Origin: Verrucomicrobiota bacterium
GTDB lineage: Bacteria; Verrucomicrobiota; Verrucomicrobiia; Chthoniobacterales; UBA10450
Reading direction: 5' to 3'
Length of the DNA stretch: 64,000 nt
NCBI GenBank assembly: GCA_003218375.1
Contig: QHNH01000009.1
Location: 124,001-188,000 of the forward strand
The position numbers were made by a program, and so were the translations under genes. Under the pieces are notes generated by a model. That model searched no databases. It was given only the letters and a program-made list of their open reading frames with translations, and was not told the DNA's origin. Positions within the stretch are counted from its first letter, which is position 1. Every line of letters begins with the position of its first letter. This document shows, piece by piece, positions 39,664 to 47,150 of this stretch.

Positions 39664-42036
39664 CTACTTAATAAGGCCCGTCAGCGCAGCTAGGAAGATC
39701 GGAACAAAAACCCATCCCGCCAGGATATGCACACGAACGTAATGTCGCAGAAAAGTCCGACTTCGTTTCGGCTTCCATAACTTATCCACGTTTAGGTCTA
39801 TAAAAGGCAGAAACAGACCTAAGCTATACCAAAATCGATTGTAAACGCGGGGCGGATCACCCTTTTCATGCTTAACCTGCAACTGCATTGTTTCCTTACT
39901 AAAAAGAAAGCACCCCAACGCGACAAAAAACGCGCAGATGTATCCAGCATTCGAGGGATGACGACCATACCCCACGAGACCATCAAGCAAGAAACTCTCG
40001 ATCCAAAAGAACCCCTTTAGGACTTCGTCGCGTTCTCGCCGCTTGCCCGCAATAAAAATTTCATCACCCGCCTTTCGATCGCCGGCCCGGATTTGAAATT
40101 GTTCAAGGTTGGTATACAAATCAGCGGCGTATAAAGACTGATTCGCGAACGCCAAGAGATTCTTACGCGAGGCCCCGCCATCCTTGGAAATGACTTTTAT
40201 AGAGTCGTAGGTCGTCGCTTCCATATCGAAAAAGCCCTCGCCCTTTTTCGGCCAAGAGCATTCTTCGACCTGAAGCAGATAGAAGTGGCTATATCGTATT
40301 TCAGCATGATGCTCAACGTTAACGGCTTTGAAAACTGCTGGGCCGTTGACTGTGATTCCGTCCGCATGAAGTTCGGCAATTTTGATCTGTCGGAGCACAA
40401 GTGAGCGCTGAAAAACACTTCCGTTGAGGCGGAGTTCGGGAACGGACGGCGAGTCAAGGAGCGTATTGATGACGAGATCGCCAAAATTCGCTCCTACGCA
40501 GGATACCTTGCCCGCGAAAATAACTGACAAAAAGTTTCCCGCGCCGCCACACTTCATGGATAGGCAGACATCACCACTTACACTTTTGAACCTTGCCTCA
40601 TCAGCTAGAAAATTCTGCGCAACTTCTGCCAGGCAGAAAGTCGCCGGCCCCTCGAAGACCGCCCGGCGAAAAAAGGCCGTACCTCCAATTTTCACGGCGT
40701 TGAAGCTTGCCTCCTTCTCGCTATTGAAATGTGCATCATCTGCATTCAGCTGACCTTTGATAGTTGCTCCGATGAATTCGACTGGACCTTCGAAAGTCGC
40801 CTTTTGGAGAGAAAAGGTGTATTCTACCTTCATCCCACTAAAGCTTGCTGCCTTCGCCTTATTCTTAAACCACGTCCCATCGAGTTCGAAGTAGGCCACT
40901 TCCGTAAAACGAAGATCGACTGAACCTTCAAATACGGCCCGCCGGACAAAAGCGCCGGAGTCTACCTTCAGGTTGGTGAAAACGGCAGCCTTTTCCTTGT
41001 TATTAAATTGCGCCTCGTTGGCAACGAATTGAACTTTAATAGCAGCCCGGTTAAAAAATACCGCACCTTCGAACACCGCCTTCTCAAAGCTAGCCGAGCC
41101 GCCCACCTTGAGATCGGCGAAGTAAGCACCTTGCATGGCGCTACAAAATTGCGCGTCATCAACAAGAAGGCAATTTCCGATATCGGCCCGGCTAAACACA
41201 ACCGGACCTTCGAACACTGCTTTTTGTAACGAGGCGGATCCAGCGATCTTCGCGTCGTTAAAGTATGCGCCCGTTCCTTCTTCCAGGAATTGCGCACCAG
41301 CGGCGGAAAAATCGGTGCCGACACTTATCGAACCGAAATTTGCCGGCCCATCGAACATAGCATTTTGAAAAGACGCGGAATGTCGAGTGCTCATAGCGTA
41401 GAAGTTCGCGTCACCTACAAAACGGGCGTTTTGAAAAAAAACCGATTCTTCAACTTTAATAGCGAAGAAATCCGCTGCTTGTTTACCGTCGATAAACTGC
41501 GAATCTTGGGCGAGCAGCTGACCAGCGATCTCGGCTCCTCCGAAGCTAGCCTTGCCGTCGAAAATCACCTTCCGAAAATCGGCCGAGCCTCCGATTTTTA
41601 TAGGAGAAAAGGTTGCGTTGGCCCTGAACCTACTTTCTTCGAATGAAATACCCGCCAGGCAGTTTGCGCCCCCCAAATTAACTTCTTGGATGAATTGGCA
41701 ATGCCGCAAAGTGACCCAAGAGGGAATTTGGGCATTAAGAAGATTAAGTGGCTCATGTATGGTAGCCCCAGTTATTTTCACACCATTACGGTGAGGCTTG
41801 ACGTTGGGTAACGCACCCGTGAGCAAATCCTCTAAAAATTGTGCGCTAAGCCCACGGTCCTTTTCATCGGGGAATTTTGTTTCTAAGTCAGCGACGTCGC
41901 CGTTTGTAATCTGATCGACAATCCATTGCTCCTTTGCAGTTAGTTTGGTCTTCTTCGGCGACGGCTCCGCGGCGATCAATGCGACGGATGAGAGACATGC
42001 CGCGAGAGTGATCGAAAACCAGGTGGGGAACTTCAC
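39664..42036 (-). CDS. Large pentapeptide-like beta-helix protein with C-terminal membrane helices
   Basis: About 790 residues. Signal-like N-terminus 'VKFPTWFSITLAACLSSVALIAAEP', then a conserved start 'LTAKEQWIVDQITNGDVADLETKFPDEKDRGLSAQFLEDLLTG'. Residues ~100-570 are repeats of 20-44 residues built on A(D/E)F/A.F units ('ASFQKAVFEGPVVFSRADIGNCLLVDDAQF' style), forming a right-handed beta-helix. The C-terminus has two to three membrane helices ('SNAGYICAFFVALGCFLF', 'ILAGWVFVPIFLAALTGLI'). Ectodomain or cytoplasmic placement and function are unknown. GTG at 42036 is preferred for the signal; TTG at 42078 is the alternative. Confidence 0.75.
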   Translation of the reverse strand: MKFPTWFSITLAACLSSVALIAAEPSPKKTKLTAKEQWIVDQITNGDVADLETKFPDEKDRGLSAQFLEDLLTGALPNVKPHRNGVKITGATIHEPLNLLNAQIPSWVTLRHCQFIQEVNLGGANCLAGISFEESRFRANATFSPIKIGGSADFRKVIFDGKASFGGAEIAGQLLAQDSQFIDGKQAADFFAIKVEESVFFQNARFVGDANFYAMSTRHSASFQNAMFDGPANFGSISVGTDFSAAGAQFLEEGTGAYFNDAKIAGSASLQKAVFEGPVVFSRADIGNCLLVDDAQFCSAMQGAYFADLKVGGSASFEKAVFEGAVFFNRAAIKVQFVANEAQFNNKEKAAVFTNLKVDSGAFVRRAVFEGSVDLRFTEVAYFELDGTWFKNKAKAASFSGMKVEYTFSLQKATFEGPVEFIGATIKGQLNADDAHFNSEKEASFNAVKIGGTAFFRRAVFEGPATFCLAEVAQNFLADEARFKSVSGDVCLSMKCGGAGNFLSVIFAGKVSCVGANFGDLVINTLLDSPSVPELRLNGSVFQRSLVLRQIKIAELHADGITVNGPAVFKAVNVEHHAEIRYSHFYLLQVEECSWPKKGEGFFDMEATTYDSIKVISKDGGASRKNLLAFANQSLYAADLYTNLEQFQIRAGDRKAGDEIFIAGKRRERDEVLKGFFWIESFLLDGLVGYGRHPSNAGYICAFFVALGCFLFSKETMQLQVKHEKGDPPRVYNRFWYSLGLFLPFIDLNVDKLWKPKRSRTFLRHYVRVHILAGWVFVPIFLAALTGLIK

Positions 42037-42173
42037 GCTTTCAACGGTCTTAACAGGCCGTCCGTTTAAGTGCAGCAAAAAAAAGCGCGGGCCCGATGCC
42101 GAACCCCGCCCGCATGAAATCGACGGCCAGAGGCGCCGCTACAGACACTAAGCGGCAGGCCTAACCGCGCACC

Positions 42174-42407
42174 TCACGCCTCGTCGGTGAAAGACCGATT
42201 GGCGTAGAAGGCGGCGGCGGTGCGGTTCTCGACACCGAGCTTCTCGAGAATCCGGTGGACATGTTTCTTCACGGTGGCCGTTTTCATTCCAAGGATTATT
42301 CCTATCTCTTCGTTCGTCTTCGCTTCCCGGAGCCAGGGCAACACCAGCAATTCGCGCCCGTTGAGTAATCCTTCCTCGATGATGTGCTCTTCCAGAATCA
42401 CGCACAT
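42174..42407 (-). CDS. LuxR-type HTH domain, N-terminally truncated regulator
   Basis: 77 residues. 'LLNGRELLVLPWLREAKTNEEIGIILGMKTATVKKHVHRILEKLGVENRTAAAFYANR' is a nearly complete GerE/LuxR DNA-binding domain of the form common in Verrucomicrobia-like regulators (normally 'LT.RE.EVL.W...GK.N.EI..IL'). Upstream of residue 1 the frame enters DNA belonging to an Fn3-type gene on the other strand, so the sensory N-terminal domain has been lost at a rearrangement junction near 42.4 kb. It may survive as an orphan DNA-binding peptide or be a pseudogene. Confidence 0.65.
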   Translation of the reverse strand: MCVILEEHIIEEGLLNGRELLVLPWLREAKTNEEIGIILGMKTATVKKHVHRILEKLGVENRTAAAFYANRSFTDEA

Positions 42408-42410
42408 CGC

Positions 42411-42906
42411 GCGCTTGCGGTTGCAATCGATCTGGAAACCGCCTTGGGCAACCTCGGCAACTACGTTAACATCATCGCCGACGGCGACCCTGCCATTCTC
42501 GTTCAGAGCGGTTTTCTTTCCTACGGAACCGATCACACGCCCGACACCACGCCGCCGGGCGCGCCCCAAAATCTCGTGGTGCGCCAGGGCGACCTGAGCG
42601 GCACCCTGGTCGCGCGCTACCAGCCCGATCGTCAACACAGCATCAACGACGTCCAGACGAACACCGGCGACCCGAACACGGAAAGCGATTGGAAACCGGC
42701 CGGCATGTTCAGCGGCGGCAAAGCGACGCTGAGCGGATCGATTCGGCCGCTCCCGCCGCCTCACTCTTCCGGCCAGGTCTATGTCGCACCGCTTCCCGCG
42801 GGCTCCATTCACGCCCGGCACAGTCATCTGGGTGCGGGTGCGCACCGTCGGTCTCAAAGGCGTCAGGGGCGCCTGGAGCGCCCCCGCCCAGATTCGAGCC
42901 GGCTGA
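42411..42906 (+). pseudogene. Fibronectin-III-like surface protein, 5' truncated and frameshifted
   Basis: 'AIDLETALGNLGNYVNIIADGDPAILVQSGF' and 'TTPPGAPQNLVVRQGDLSGTLVARYQPDR' open the piece in one frame through 'DWKPAGMFSGGKATLSG'; an insertion of about 65 bases shifts the frame, and the end continues as 'APFTPGTVIWVRVRTVGLKGVRGAWSAPAQIRAG' to TGA. The pattern is that of a short Fn3-like protein whose first exon-equivalent is missing. The 3' end and downstream terminator recur four more times within 2 kb. It is not expected to give a full protein. Confidence 0.75.
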
Positions 42907-42990
42907 TTCCTCAGCCTAACGAGCGGAGACCGGGCCCGAACCAAATTTTCCACAATCGTTTTCTCAGTCCTCGCCACGGGCGCTGTACGT
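42821..42990 (+). repeat. Fn3-gene 3' end + terminator unit, copy 1
   Basis: Unit reads GTCATCTGGGTGCGGGTGCG ... GGTCTCAAAGGCGTCAGGGG ... GCCTGGAGCG ... CGGCTGA, then CCTAACGAGCGGAGACCGGG and a T-rich tail. It is the reference for four more degenerate copies at 43161, 43850, 44096 and 44546. Confidence 0.8.
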
Positions 42991-43134
42991 GATTCACGTC
43001 TACGCGAACACGCGCGCTGCCGAACTATCGTAAGCAGCTTACGATGTATCCAGGCACGGGCATTGATGACTCCCGGGGGTGACTCGTAGACCGATGCTAT
43101 GCGTGACTCACGTATAGCACCATGACGCGCGATG
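42982..43134. repeat. 153-bp block with two operator-like palindromes, copy 1
   Basis: Begins and ends with a 23-base palindrome of core TATACGTGAnTCACGTATA type (42982-43004 and 43096-43118). Between them are 'GAACACGCGCGCTGCCGAAC', 'TTACGATGTATCCAGGCACG' and 'GCATTGATGACTCC'. The same block recurs at 43431-43587 at about 90% identity. Confidence 0.8.
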
Positions 43135-43160
43135 TAGATTGCAGGGGTTTCAATCATGCC

Positions 43161-43320
43161 CGGCATAGCCATCTGGATGCGGGTGCGTACCGTCGGTCTC
43201 AAAGGCGTCAGGGGCGCCTGGAGCGACCCCGCCCAGATTCGAGCCGGCTGATTCCTCAGCCTAACGAGTGGAGACCGGGCGCGAACCAAATTTTCCACAA
43301 TCGTTTTCTCGATCCCCGCC
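43161..43320 (+). repeat. Fn3-gene 3' end + terminator unit, copy 2
   Basis: Closest to copy 1: same GGTCTCAAAGGCGTCAGGGG, GCCCAGATTCGAGCCGGCTG and CAAATTTTCCACAATCGTTT segments, differing at scattered positions. The coding frame is intact only for the last ~25 residues of the Fn3 protein. Confidence 0.8.
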
Positions 43321-43326
43321 TCGGGC

Positions 43327-43349
43327 GCTATGCCTGATTCACATATAGC
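43327..43349. promoter_or_regulatory. Operator-like palindrome, degenerate copy
   Basis: Same 23-base pattern as the palindromes at 42982, 43096, 43431, 43547 and 43672, with two changes in the left arm (GCTATGCCTGA). Followed by ACCATGACGCACGAGG, which also follows two of the others. Confidence 0.55.
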
Positions 43350-43430
43350 ACCATGACGCACGAGGTGGCTTACGGGACCTTCGATTCACGCCGGACGGGA
43401 CCATCTGGGCTAAGCGCGCCGTGGATTTGG

Positions 43431-43587
43431 GCTATACGTGTGAATCACGTCTACGCGAACACGCGTGCTGCCGAACTATCGTAGGCGGCTTACGATGCAT
43501 CCAGGCACGGGCATTGATGACTCCGGGGGATGACTCGTAGACCGGTACTATACGTGACTCACGTACAGCACCATGACGCGCGAGATG
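43431..43587. repeat. ~155-bp block with two operator-like palindromes, copy 2
   Basis: Second copy of the block at 42982-43134, with palindromes at 43431-43455 (two-base insertion in the centre) and 43547-43569, and the shared GCTGCCGAACTATCGTA and CCAGGCACGGGCATTGATGA segments. Confidence 0.8.
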
Positions 43588-43671
43588 GTTTACAAGGCCT
43601 TCGCTTCACGCGCATCGTCGAGACATCCGCCCAAGAGTGCGACCTGGGTAGCCACTGGCGTTGCCTTGGGT

Positions 43672-43694
43672 GCTATACGTGATTCACGTATAGC
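43672..43694. promoter_or_regulatory. Perfect 23-base palindrome, best copy of the family
   Basis: Eleven-base arms around one central base; core TATACGTGATTCACGTATA. The odd-length dyad with 11-bp arms is typical of binding sites for homodimeric HTH regulators. No promoter or gene start is evident beside it. Confidence 0.6.
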
Positions 43695-43849
43695 GCCATC
43701 CGAAGTCGCAATATATGATCTGGGGCCGGGTCCGGAAGATTGGCACCGGCGGCAAAGCGAGGCGGAGCGGCTTGATTCGACTGCTCCCACGGCATCACCC
43801 TTCGGGGCAGGACTATGTCGCACCGCTCCCTCGGGCTCCATTCACGCTC

Positions 43850-44030
43850 GGCACAGTCATCGGGTGCGGGCGGACACCGTCGGCCTCAAAGGCGTCATGG
43901 GCGCCTGGAGCGACCCGGCCAAACTAATGGTGGTGTAACGCGACCACCGCTCCTCCGCTCCTCCTGACGACCGAAGAACGGGCGAAAATATTTCTGCCGC
44001 CGCTTTTTTTCTCTTCTGGCACTCGGGGTA
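43850..44030 (+). repeat. Fn3-gene 3' end + terminator unit, copy 3
   Basis: Shares GGCCTCAAAGGCGTCATGGG, GCCTGGAGCGACCCGGCC and the ending ATGGTGGTGTAA (Met-Val-Val-stop). Just upstream (43748-43850) it also contains the inserted segment seen in copy 1 (GACTATGTCGCACCGCTCCC region), so copies 1 and 3 share the same insertion. Confidence 0.7.
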
Positions 44031-44063
44031 TCGCCCATCTGGAAAAGCGGCGCCCTTAAACTT

Positions 44064-44080
44064 GACCGCTTTAAGCGGTC
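44064..44080. repeat. GACCGCTTTAAGCGGTC palindrome, copy 1 of 3
   Basis: Perfect 17-base odd dyad. Identical copies at 44266-44282 and 44499-44515. In copies 1 and 3 it is followed by GTTCCAnCC.CAC.CTCAA and TAACGGACG, then an Fn3 3' end, so it forms the upstream boundary of the repeat unit. Confidence 0.85.
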
Positions 44081-44095
44081 GGGTTCCAGCCCCAC

Positions 44096-44222
44096 ACTCA
44101 AGAGTAACGGACGAACGCGGGCGGCTGGAGGGACCTCGCCCAGATCCGAGTCGGCTGATCCCTTGATCTAACGAGCGAAAGAACGGGCGGAAATATTTTC
44201 TACGGCGCTTTTTCTCTTCTGG
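44096..44222 (+). repeat. Fn3-gene 3' end + terminator unit, copy 4 (most decayed)
   Basis: Only the last part is recognisable: GGCTGGAGGGACCTCGCCCA, GATCCGAGTCGGCTGA, then TCTAACGAGCGAAAGAACGG and a decayed hairpin with CTTTTTCTCTTCTGGC. Confidence 0.6.
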
Positions 44223-44265
44223 CAATCGAGCGGCCCGTCCATTTCAAAGGCGGTCTGCTAAACTC

Positions 44266-44282
44266 GACCGCTTTAAGCGGTC
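44266..44282. repeat. GACCGCTTTAAGCGGTC palindrome, copy 2 of 3
   Basis: Identical to the copy at 44064. Here the sequence after it does not lead into an Fn3 end but into a TGTAGC-like segment (44321-44371) and unassigned DNA up to 44490. Confidence 0.85.
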
Positions 44283-44498
44283 GAGTTTCCTTGGGTCGAG
44301 TTCCGGACCATCTTGAGATTTGTAGCCTCGGCGCCTGCTCGCGAATGGAGCGAGCCGGGAGGCTGCGACATAGATCACAAAACCTGAGGGGCGAAGGCGA
44401 GAGAGTGGGAAGCGAACGAGTCAAAGCTTTCGGAGCTGTGCCGCCGTACCTGGGTAGACGCCTCGCCAACGCACCGGCGGCGAACGCCCGGCCGACTT

Positions 44499-44515
44499 GA
44501 CCGCTTTAAGCGGTC
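44499..44515. repeat. GACCGCTTTAAGCGGTC palindrome, copy 3 of 3
   Basis: Identical to the other two, again followed by GAGTTCCAACCGCACGCTCA and an Fn3 3' end unit. Confidence 0.85.
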
Positions 44516-44545
44516 GAGTTCCAACCGCACGCTCAAAAATAACGG

Positions 44546-44730
44546 ACGCCCGGCACCGTCATCTGAGTGCGGGTGCGCACCGTTGGTCTCAAAGGCGTCA
44601 TGGGCGCTTGGAGCGACCCGGCGAAAATCATGGTGGTGTAACTGGACCGCCGCGCAGATCCACGGTGTCTGAAACTGCATCCTAACGAGCGAAGAGCGGG
44701 CGGGAATAATTTTCCCGCCCGTTTCTTTTC
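44546..44730 (+). repeat. Fn3-gene 3' end + terminator unit, copy 5 (best terminator)
   Basis: CACCGTCATCTGAGTGCGGG, GGTCTCAAAGGCGTCATGGG, GAGCGACCCGGCGAAAATCA and TGGTGGTGTAA give the last ~25 codons of the Fn3 protein; an in-frame TGA replaces the Trp codon of 'VIWVRV'. It ends in the intact intrinsic terminator. Confidence 0.75.
44697..44729 (+). terminator. Rho-independent terminator
   Basis: Perfect ten-base stem CGGGCGGGAA/TTCCCGCCCG with a five-base loop, then TTTCTTTT. Decayed versions of this hairpin follow the other Fn3 3'-end copies. Confidence 0.8.
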
Positions 44731-44753
44731 CGGCGATCACCCGCACGACAGAC

Positions 44754-45140
44754 ATGAATCGTCTCGCGTTTGGAATGAGTCAGCGGCCACAGTGTATCCA
44801 ATTGAGCGCGGAAAAACTTTGTATCTGGCGTCCGCTAAGGCGGCGTCACAATCAACTCTTGCAGCTTCTGGGGTACGGGTACACCGACCGCGAGGCTGCG
44901 CAGCACATGCGAATCGGCCTCGGCACTGTGCGAACTTATTTGGCACAGATGAGAGTCTCCCTTCATGTATCTACTCTCTCTGGGGTGCGCCGTCTGGCGC
45001 GAGACTGGATCGCCGGGAAAACGAATCGGCGGGCAAAAGACACAGATAAACTCAGGCCGCGGCACTGCTCGTTTGGCTTTCGCCCATCATTAAGCGCTCT
45101 CCTGTCACGGCCTGCGACTAACAGGTGGGGAGACACATGA
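44754..45140 (+). CDS. LuxR/GerE-type HTH protein
   Basis: 128 residues. 'RRRHNQLLQLLGYGYTDREAAQHMRIGLGTVRTYLAQMRVSLHVSTLSGVRRLARDW' (about 28-90) fits the four-helix GerE fold, including the recognition helix 'GLGTVRTYLAQMR'. No receiver or ligand-binding domain precedes it, and the ~40-residue C-terminal tail is basic and unstructured. It begins 25 bases after the strong terminator, so it is the start of a new unit, and it overlaps the sigma-like gene by four bases. Probably a small DNA-binding regulator; target unknown. Confidence 0.6.
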   Translation: MNRLAFGMSQRPQCIQLSAEKLCIWRPLRRRHNQLLQLLGYGYTDREAAQHMRIGLGTVRTYLAQMRVSLHVSTLSGVRRLARDWIAGKTNRRAKDTDKLRPRHCSFGFRPSLSALLSRPATNRWGDT

Positions 45141-45667
45141 ATCCTGAAAAAAACGGTGAAAACACCGACTCCGAAACGCAGATATCGATGGACGATCAAG
45201 ATGCGCAGCTTGGTGCCGCAAAGCAGGCAGCAGCTAGTGGTCAGCCGATTCAGATGCTTGAGTGCCTGCACAAAAGCCGCGCACTTGATGGCCTTGTTCG
45301 ACGCTTGCAATCGAAATGGCAAGTCTTGGCCTCTTCGGACATCGACATGGCTGTCGCAAAGGCGGTCGACGCCGCATACAGTTGTCTAAGGTCCGGCAAA
45401 ACCGTGACCCGCTTCGCGGGCTTCTTATGGAAAGTCGCAGATCGACGAGCATTCGACTGCGCGCGTCTATTGCATGGGCAAATGCCGACAGACCCGACCG
45501 TCCTCGAAAACATCGCCGACCCGAGCAGCGTCCTTCCAGGTCACGATCCGGACGACGCGGAGGATGAGCGTAATGCTATGATTCGGCGCGCCGCACAGAT
45601 CGCGCGCAAGTTAGTGCCCAAAGTCCACTTTCGACTTTATTCCTCCTTTTGCTCAGTGAAGGCGTAG
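45137..45667 (+). CDS. Sigma-factor region-2-like protein, C-terminus probably replaced
   Basis: 176 residues from the ATG with GGGGAG five bases upstream. 'ALDGLVRRLQSKWQVLASSDIDMAVAKAVDAAYSCLRSGKTVTRFAGFLWKVADRRAFDCAR' resembles ECF sigma region 2 (helices 2.1-2.4) weakly. Region 4 is absent: after 'IRRAAQIARKLVPKVHFRLYSSF' the frame enters an ORF6N-gene remnant read antisense. That suggests a truncated regulator whose original 3' half was lost at a junction near 45.64 kb. Coupled to the HTH gene upstream. Assignment is tentative; a nucleic-acid-related regulator is the broadest safe statement. Confidence 0.45.
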   Translation: MNPEKNGENTDSETQISMDDQDAQLGAAKQAAASGQPIQMLECLHKSRALDGLVRRLQSKWQVLASSDIDMAVAKAVDAAYSCLRSGKTVTRFAGFLWKVADRRAFDCARLLHGQMPTDPTVLENIADPSSVLPGHDPDDAEDERNAMIRRAAQIARKLVPKVHFRLYSSFCSVKA

Positions 45668-47012: not shown

Positions 47013-47150
47013 GAAGCAGGAAGCAGGAAGGAGAAAGGAGGAAGTAGAAAACGGGGACGGAAGACGGAGGTCAGAAGTCGGAAGTCGGACGAAGCGGAGC
47101 TTCGGAGACAAGTGCGTTTCCGTTCCCAAGTACAACTTGGGAACGAGGAG
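47010..47150. repeat. Purine-rich short tandem repeat plus 70-bp direct repeat (left copy)
   Basis: First a tract of GGAAGCA/GGAAGGA-type seven-base units, then (47081-47150) GGAAGTCGGACGAAGCGGAG, CTTCGGAGACAAG and a hairpin GTTCCCAAGTACAACTTGGG. The 70-bp part recurs in the same orientation at 48541-48607, so the pair flanks the ferritin-like gene. Confidence 0.8.

Follow-up and report, generated by a model that had tools for sequence, protein, structure and literature searches.

The HigA2 antitoxin of Vibrio cholerae (higBA2) has a footprinted operator, TGTACGC-N5-GCGTACA, which begins after the -35 element and covers the -10 box of its own promoter (PMC11006873). Rickettsia palindromic elements are ~150 bp long, encode a conserved peptide and bear a CGTC tag at one end (PMC10969869, PMC3733652). 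REP/REPIN sequences and the RAYT genes associated with them form a third system of reference.

The family described here, P1, is a dispersed bacterial palindrome of 23–29 bases that is linked to a candidate binding protein. Two old questions become jointly testable with it: the role of scattered palindromic repeats, and the way in which operators become dispersed over a genome. Like the Rickettsia elements, P1 occurs between genes and as in-frame gains in protein genes. Unlike them it is short, with a signal that ends ~14 bases from the centre, has no CGTC tag and is tied to a small regulator gene. With REP/RAYT systems it shares short dispersed palindromes, species-specific variants and a gene bracketed by palindromes; it differs in that the consensus flank is devoid of GTAG/CGTC, the centre is a single base and the partner is an XRE regulator.

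The window is a stretch of 64,000 nucleotides from a genome of 3.96 Mb in 52 contigs (G000). A pattern search with the P1 core, TATACGTGAnTCACGTATA, finds five matches in it with 0–3 mismatches, at 42982, 43096, 43327, 43547 and 43672, and zero copies in 100 dinucleotide-preserving shuffles. Copy 1 (42982..43004, GCTGTACGTGATTCACGTCTACG) has four mismatches to the 23-mer, copy 2 (43096..43118, GCTATGCGTGACTCACGTATAGC) one, copy 3 (43327..43349, GCTATGCCTGATTCACATATAGC) three and copy 5 (43547..43569, ACTATACGTGACTCACGTACAGC) two. Copy 6 (43672..43694, GCTATACGTGATTCACGTATAGC) is perfect, as the first-pass annotation stated, and is the only one in the window with perfect 11-base arms; here TTGGGT lies 17 bases ahead of TATAGC. 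That annotation counted six palindromes, five of which are genuine. The other, placed at 43431, is only a relative (43432..43456, GCTATACGTGTGAATCACGTCTACG) in which two additional central bases, read from the sequence (GCTATACGTGtgAATCACGTCTACG), break the arm spacing. The remark that three copies are trailed by ACCATGACGC is correct. Start-to-start distances are 114, 231, 104, 116 and 125 bases, which does not agree with the regular spacing originally described.

Duplication around the palindromes, reported as ~155-bp blocks, is real and larger in extent. Block A (42800..43002, + strand) and block A' (43145..43347, +) each span 203 nt, are 90% identical and end inside copies 1 and 3, respectively. 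Block B (42989..43151, +) and block B' (43440..43602, +) each span 163 nt, are 88% identical and start inside copy 1 and inside copy 4, the latter lying within the duplicated block. Because block edges fall inside palindromes, the cluster is a mosaic jointed at palindromes. Around it, the DNA contains several repeats of a single gene-like sequence's 3' end (repeat families D1–D5). Four copies of such an end (..RVRTVGLKGVMGAWSDPAK..), at 42832–42918, 43177–43263, 43864–43950 and 44567–44653, are apparently decayed tandem duplicates. The window P1 sites are among the most decayed of the genome, and the array looks like a group of duplicated, decaying relics from which the partner HTH gene is absent. 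As remnants of the start of that gene the window copies are unconvincing, since 11 of 200 and 17 of 200 shuffles matched its flank equally well (ten tests). Positions 42000–45200 contain zero Rfam families of structured RNA.

Pattern searches put the number of P1 copies in this genome at ~19, distributed over eight places. Apart from the window cluster, six copies lie at C8:52.3–56.3 kb, three at C19:195.3–195.6 kb with ~168-base spacing and two at C19:226–230 kb, with single copies on contigs C10, C28 and C47. Among 58 genomes of the order, P1 (consensus from 100 distinct copies, GATGCTATACGTGAnTCACGTATAGCATC) is present in 23 of the 37 from the same family and in 0 of the 21 from other families, at 1–16 copies per genome at the search threshold. 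Exact 23-mers in public genomes are nearly confined to Chthoniobacterales/Spartobacteria and Verrucomicrobia assemblies. A search of the open literature with the core sequence returned zero matches. A phage origin was rejected: the exact core is absent from viral contigs, and the HTH protein was not found among phage records.

To characterize the neighbourhood of P1, ORFs within 3 kb of a copy were clustered into families, with no prior search for an HTH gene. A small HTH protein emerged as a recurrent family, at 16 loci. The gene is a stand-alone XRE/HigA-like gene of ~73 aa, and P1 or a clear variant lies just upstream of it at 18 distinct loci. The gap from palindrome to start codon is roughly 8–31 bases at the 15 loci with a readable start, and a second P1 often follows ~30–45 bases past the stop codon. 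The window's genome carries the gene at C8:54828–55046, on a contig other than that of the window. In aligned loci the right arm of P1 serves as the -10 box, and the layout is conserved. Of the 16 P1 copies upstream of the gene, 11 show the promoter spacing TTG-N16-TATA, compared with 11 among the 262 orientations of copies elsewhere (p = 1.6e-10), and all 16 of the 37 family genomes that have the gene carry P1, against 7 of the 21 that do not, with P1 absent in the other 14 (Fisher p = 2.1e-5); the 16 promoter sites share descent, so that these p-values overstate independence. Sequence comparison is sufficient to establish the conserved promoter position and the co-occurrence. Three of the seven family genomes with P1 and no detected HTH gene are at least 90% complete (G010, G025, G028), with only 1–2 sites each. 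Four weaker homologues of the HTH protein occur outside the family, and P1 is absent from the three flanks that could be scanned (L207, L209, L211).

The HTH gene is under purifying selection (dN/dS 0.04–0.36, seven pairs). Its product matches Pfam HTH_3 (PF01381) at 35.3 and 32 bits against a curated cut-off of 23, and its nearest solved sequence relative is the HigA2 antitoxin. In an AlphaFold model (pLDDT 76.7) the N-terminus is short and modelled with low confidence. The best fold matches of the model are tied at Z 7–8 and include HigA2; with Z below 8, the fold by itself is of a common type. Both proteins share the HTH_3 fold, and both associated sites are inverted repeats that cover spacer and -10 box in the protein's own promoter. 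The HigA2 operator and P1 (TATACGT-N5-ACGTATA) have the same 7-base arms and 5-base centre, with five of seven half-site bases equal. Residues R47, Q50, E51 and R56 are invariant in the alignment of the small HTH proteins. In the authors' own residue alignment, which allows the numbering of the paper and that of the chain to differ by one, two of the four base-contacting residues of HigA2, both arginines, align with R47 and R56, and the other two positions are occupied by Q50 and E51. Unlike the HigA2 operator, P1 recurs within a genome, in up to ~19 copies. No toxin was recognized by eye among the ORFs that neighbour the ~73-aa gene at nine loci.

Promoter placement, co-occurrence and the likeness to the HigA2 operator together make P1 best read as an autoregulatory operator, and it is probably the site through which the stand-alone ~73-aa XRE/HigA-like repressor acts on its own promoter. 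The small HTH protein is thus predicted to bind P1 and to repress transcription. A dimer would grip TATACGT-N5-ACGTATA, a site that spans the spacer and -10 box of a TTG-N16-TATAGC promoter immediately 5' of the start codon, and once bound would shut off that promoter. Further operator copies may have spread by duplication and as inserted segments that carry a palindrome, some of them in frame within protein genes. Most scattered copies, those of the window included, are off promoter positions and lie in mosaic duplications; they may be either additional binding sites or inert. In the window, at most the better copies at 43672, 43096 and 43547 might still be bound. The second P1, past the stop codon, would not be needed for repression and counts against the operator reading, as do the seven family genomes with P1 and no detected HTH gene. 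An operator-like character was already proposed for the window palindromes and is borne out: throughout the family P1 holds a promoter position ahead of a small HTH gene and co-occurs with it, the partner being XRE/HigA-like in place of LuxR-type. The outcome named as refuting that proposal, a generic repeat common in the genome and devoid of a binding protein, applies by half: the repeat is dispersed, yet there is a protein that likely binds it.

Away from the HTH gene, P1 copies avoid genes: 18% lie inside ORFs versus 72% of random positions. Within spacers these other copies are not concentrated at gene starts, so a simple regulon fails to account for them, and a role for P1 as a general promoter element is rejected. 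Individual placements near genes do occur. P1 lies ~13 bases upstream of the ATG of a GNAT-like acetyltransferase gene, conserved in three congeners, and a class A beta-lactamase-like gene has a nearby upstream copy in two genomes. Dispersal extends into coding sequence, where the comparison of orthologues establishes in-frame gains. In one genus a glycosyltransferase-like gene has gained 10 codons that include P1, and from species to species of that genus the palindrome is decaying. A DNA-glycosylase-like gene has gained 23 codons that end in a variant palindrome in one congener (G006), the other orthologues being without them; its orthologue in the window's genome has a different 23-codon gain, which bears a palindrome of another family, P3. 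This would be a second bacterial group in which palindromes appear to become protein parts. In prmC and aroC, P1 appears without length change; for prmC this seems to have happened independently in two genera. Whether in genes or in spacers, copies decay from one sister species to another.

Symmetric variants add a further aspect. In G006 the prmC copy reads ATACGTCAgTGACGTAT, with both arms altered symmetrically. The variant TACGTCAnTGACGTA is present in five copies in this genome (C9:372762, C12:51597, C15:68125, C17:65352 and C22:252986), two of them within prmC and aroC, and in 0 of 36 other genomes. Two of the G006 variant sites coincide with standard-form sites of the window's genome. 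Other genomes carry further symmetric variants, for example GATATACGTGAnTCACGTATATC and GACATACGTGAnTCACGTATGTC. Dyad symmetry is therefore maintained, by selection or by arm-to-arm copying. No partner gene was identified for the G006 variant palindrome. Such species-specific variants form a natural set for following joint change in the sites and in the small HTH protein.

Dispersal on this scale raises a credible, if less than probable, alternative: P1 may be mainly a selfish palindrome of the RPE/REP type, with the HTH gene carried in a mobile cassette of ~285 bp and promoter use secondary. P1-HTH-P1 units of ~283–310 bp do stand next to different genes in different species, and the in-frame gains and the decay of copies in genes and spacers between sister species fit the same picture. 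The low copy number argues against it, as does the appearance of P1 in prmC and aroC at constant length, which is unlike insertion. Nor were clean empty sites found for intergenic copies in a sister genus, where one copy is common to three species and one lies at a synteny break. A transposase partner is also lacking. RAYT/Y1 transposases were rejected in this role: the window's genome has ~11 Y1 genes, and the eight loci inspected bear other palindromes and zero P1. A more elaborate form of the idea is rather doubtful, namely that the P1-HTH-P1 arrangement, at ~285 bp, is a minimal selfish unit that does without a transposase and in which the ~73-aa XRE protein restrains itself via a palindrome that spreads even into reading frames, with two other palindrome families, P2 (with a small basic ORF) and P3, as parallel systems.

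A role as a chromosome-organizing or genome-wide binding site, comparable to matS or parS and recognized by the small HTH protein, would suit the presence of P1 in genes as well as spacers and the same symmetric change at several sites of one congener, prmC and aroC included. It is nevertheless unlikely, given the very uneven clusters, the lack of P1 in 14 of 37 family genomes and the decay visible in sister species. Still less probable, indeed very much so, is that the window cluster is a working multi-site operator of neighbouring LuxR-type genes. The presence of six sites within 0.7 kb, flanked on both sides by HTH-like ORFs, invites this reading, and the first-pass annotation took both flanking genes for LuxR-type HTH genes. 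Of these, the ORF at 42174 (395 codons) matches GerE only in its last ~57 residues and runs back through the first palindromes, so that the LuxR match is a C-terminal fragment of an ORF crossing the array; the ORF at 44754 has zero Pfam matches at E 1e-3. The sites concerned are strongly decayed, and at other loci the gene that recurs beside P1 is of XRE type. LuxR genes were rejected as partners of P1, as the recurrent gene families near it at other loci include none of LuxR type (judged by eye). A replicon's iteron or partition array, also suggested initially, is exceedingly improbable: several copies do lie within a short stretch, but the repeats are inverted, not direct, the spacing is irregular (104–231 bases) and copies occur at eight places in the genome.

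Other palindromes lie near the autoregulatory operator candidate P1 in the window and elsewhere. P2 is a second odd palindrome family (ATCGTAAGCnGCTTACGAT), with 22 places in the window's genome within two mismatches. In the window it is found at 43027..43045 (ATCGTAAGCAGCTTACGAT) and, with one mismatch, at 43478..43496 (ATCGTAGGCGGCTTACGAT). About half of all P2 places fall in one 2-kb array at C34:143.1–145.2 kb (L191), where one copy precedes a small basic ORF (VTLSAKVREYFAEIGRRGRSAGRRQLTRQQAKLMVAIREAKR...) by ~25 bases; P2 and this ORF are possibly a parallel palindrome/small-protein pair. The third family, P3 (CGACCGCTTnAAGCGGTCG), is represented in the window at 44058..44085 (AAACTTGACCGCTTTAAGCGGTCGGGTT), at 44260..44288 (AAACTCGACCGCTTTAAGCGGTCGAGTTT, with perfect 14-base arms) and at 44495..44520 (ACTTGACCGCTTTAAGCGGTCGAGTT). 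The P3 copy in frame within the DNA-glycosylase-like gene is at C3:9864–9882. A perfect palindrome of separate sequence, CGTTCCCAAGTACAACTTGGGAACG, occupies window positions 47121–47145, and a close variant occurs at two places at C19:226–230 kb. The eight inspected Y1 (RAYT-like) loci are on contigs C51, C28, C52, C25, C32, C3, C19 and C11 (L072–L079), and several are bracketed by a palindrome of their own with a 2–4 base loop.
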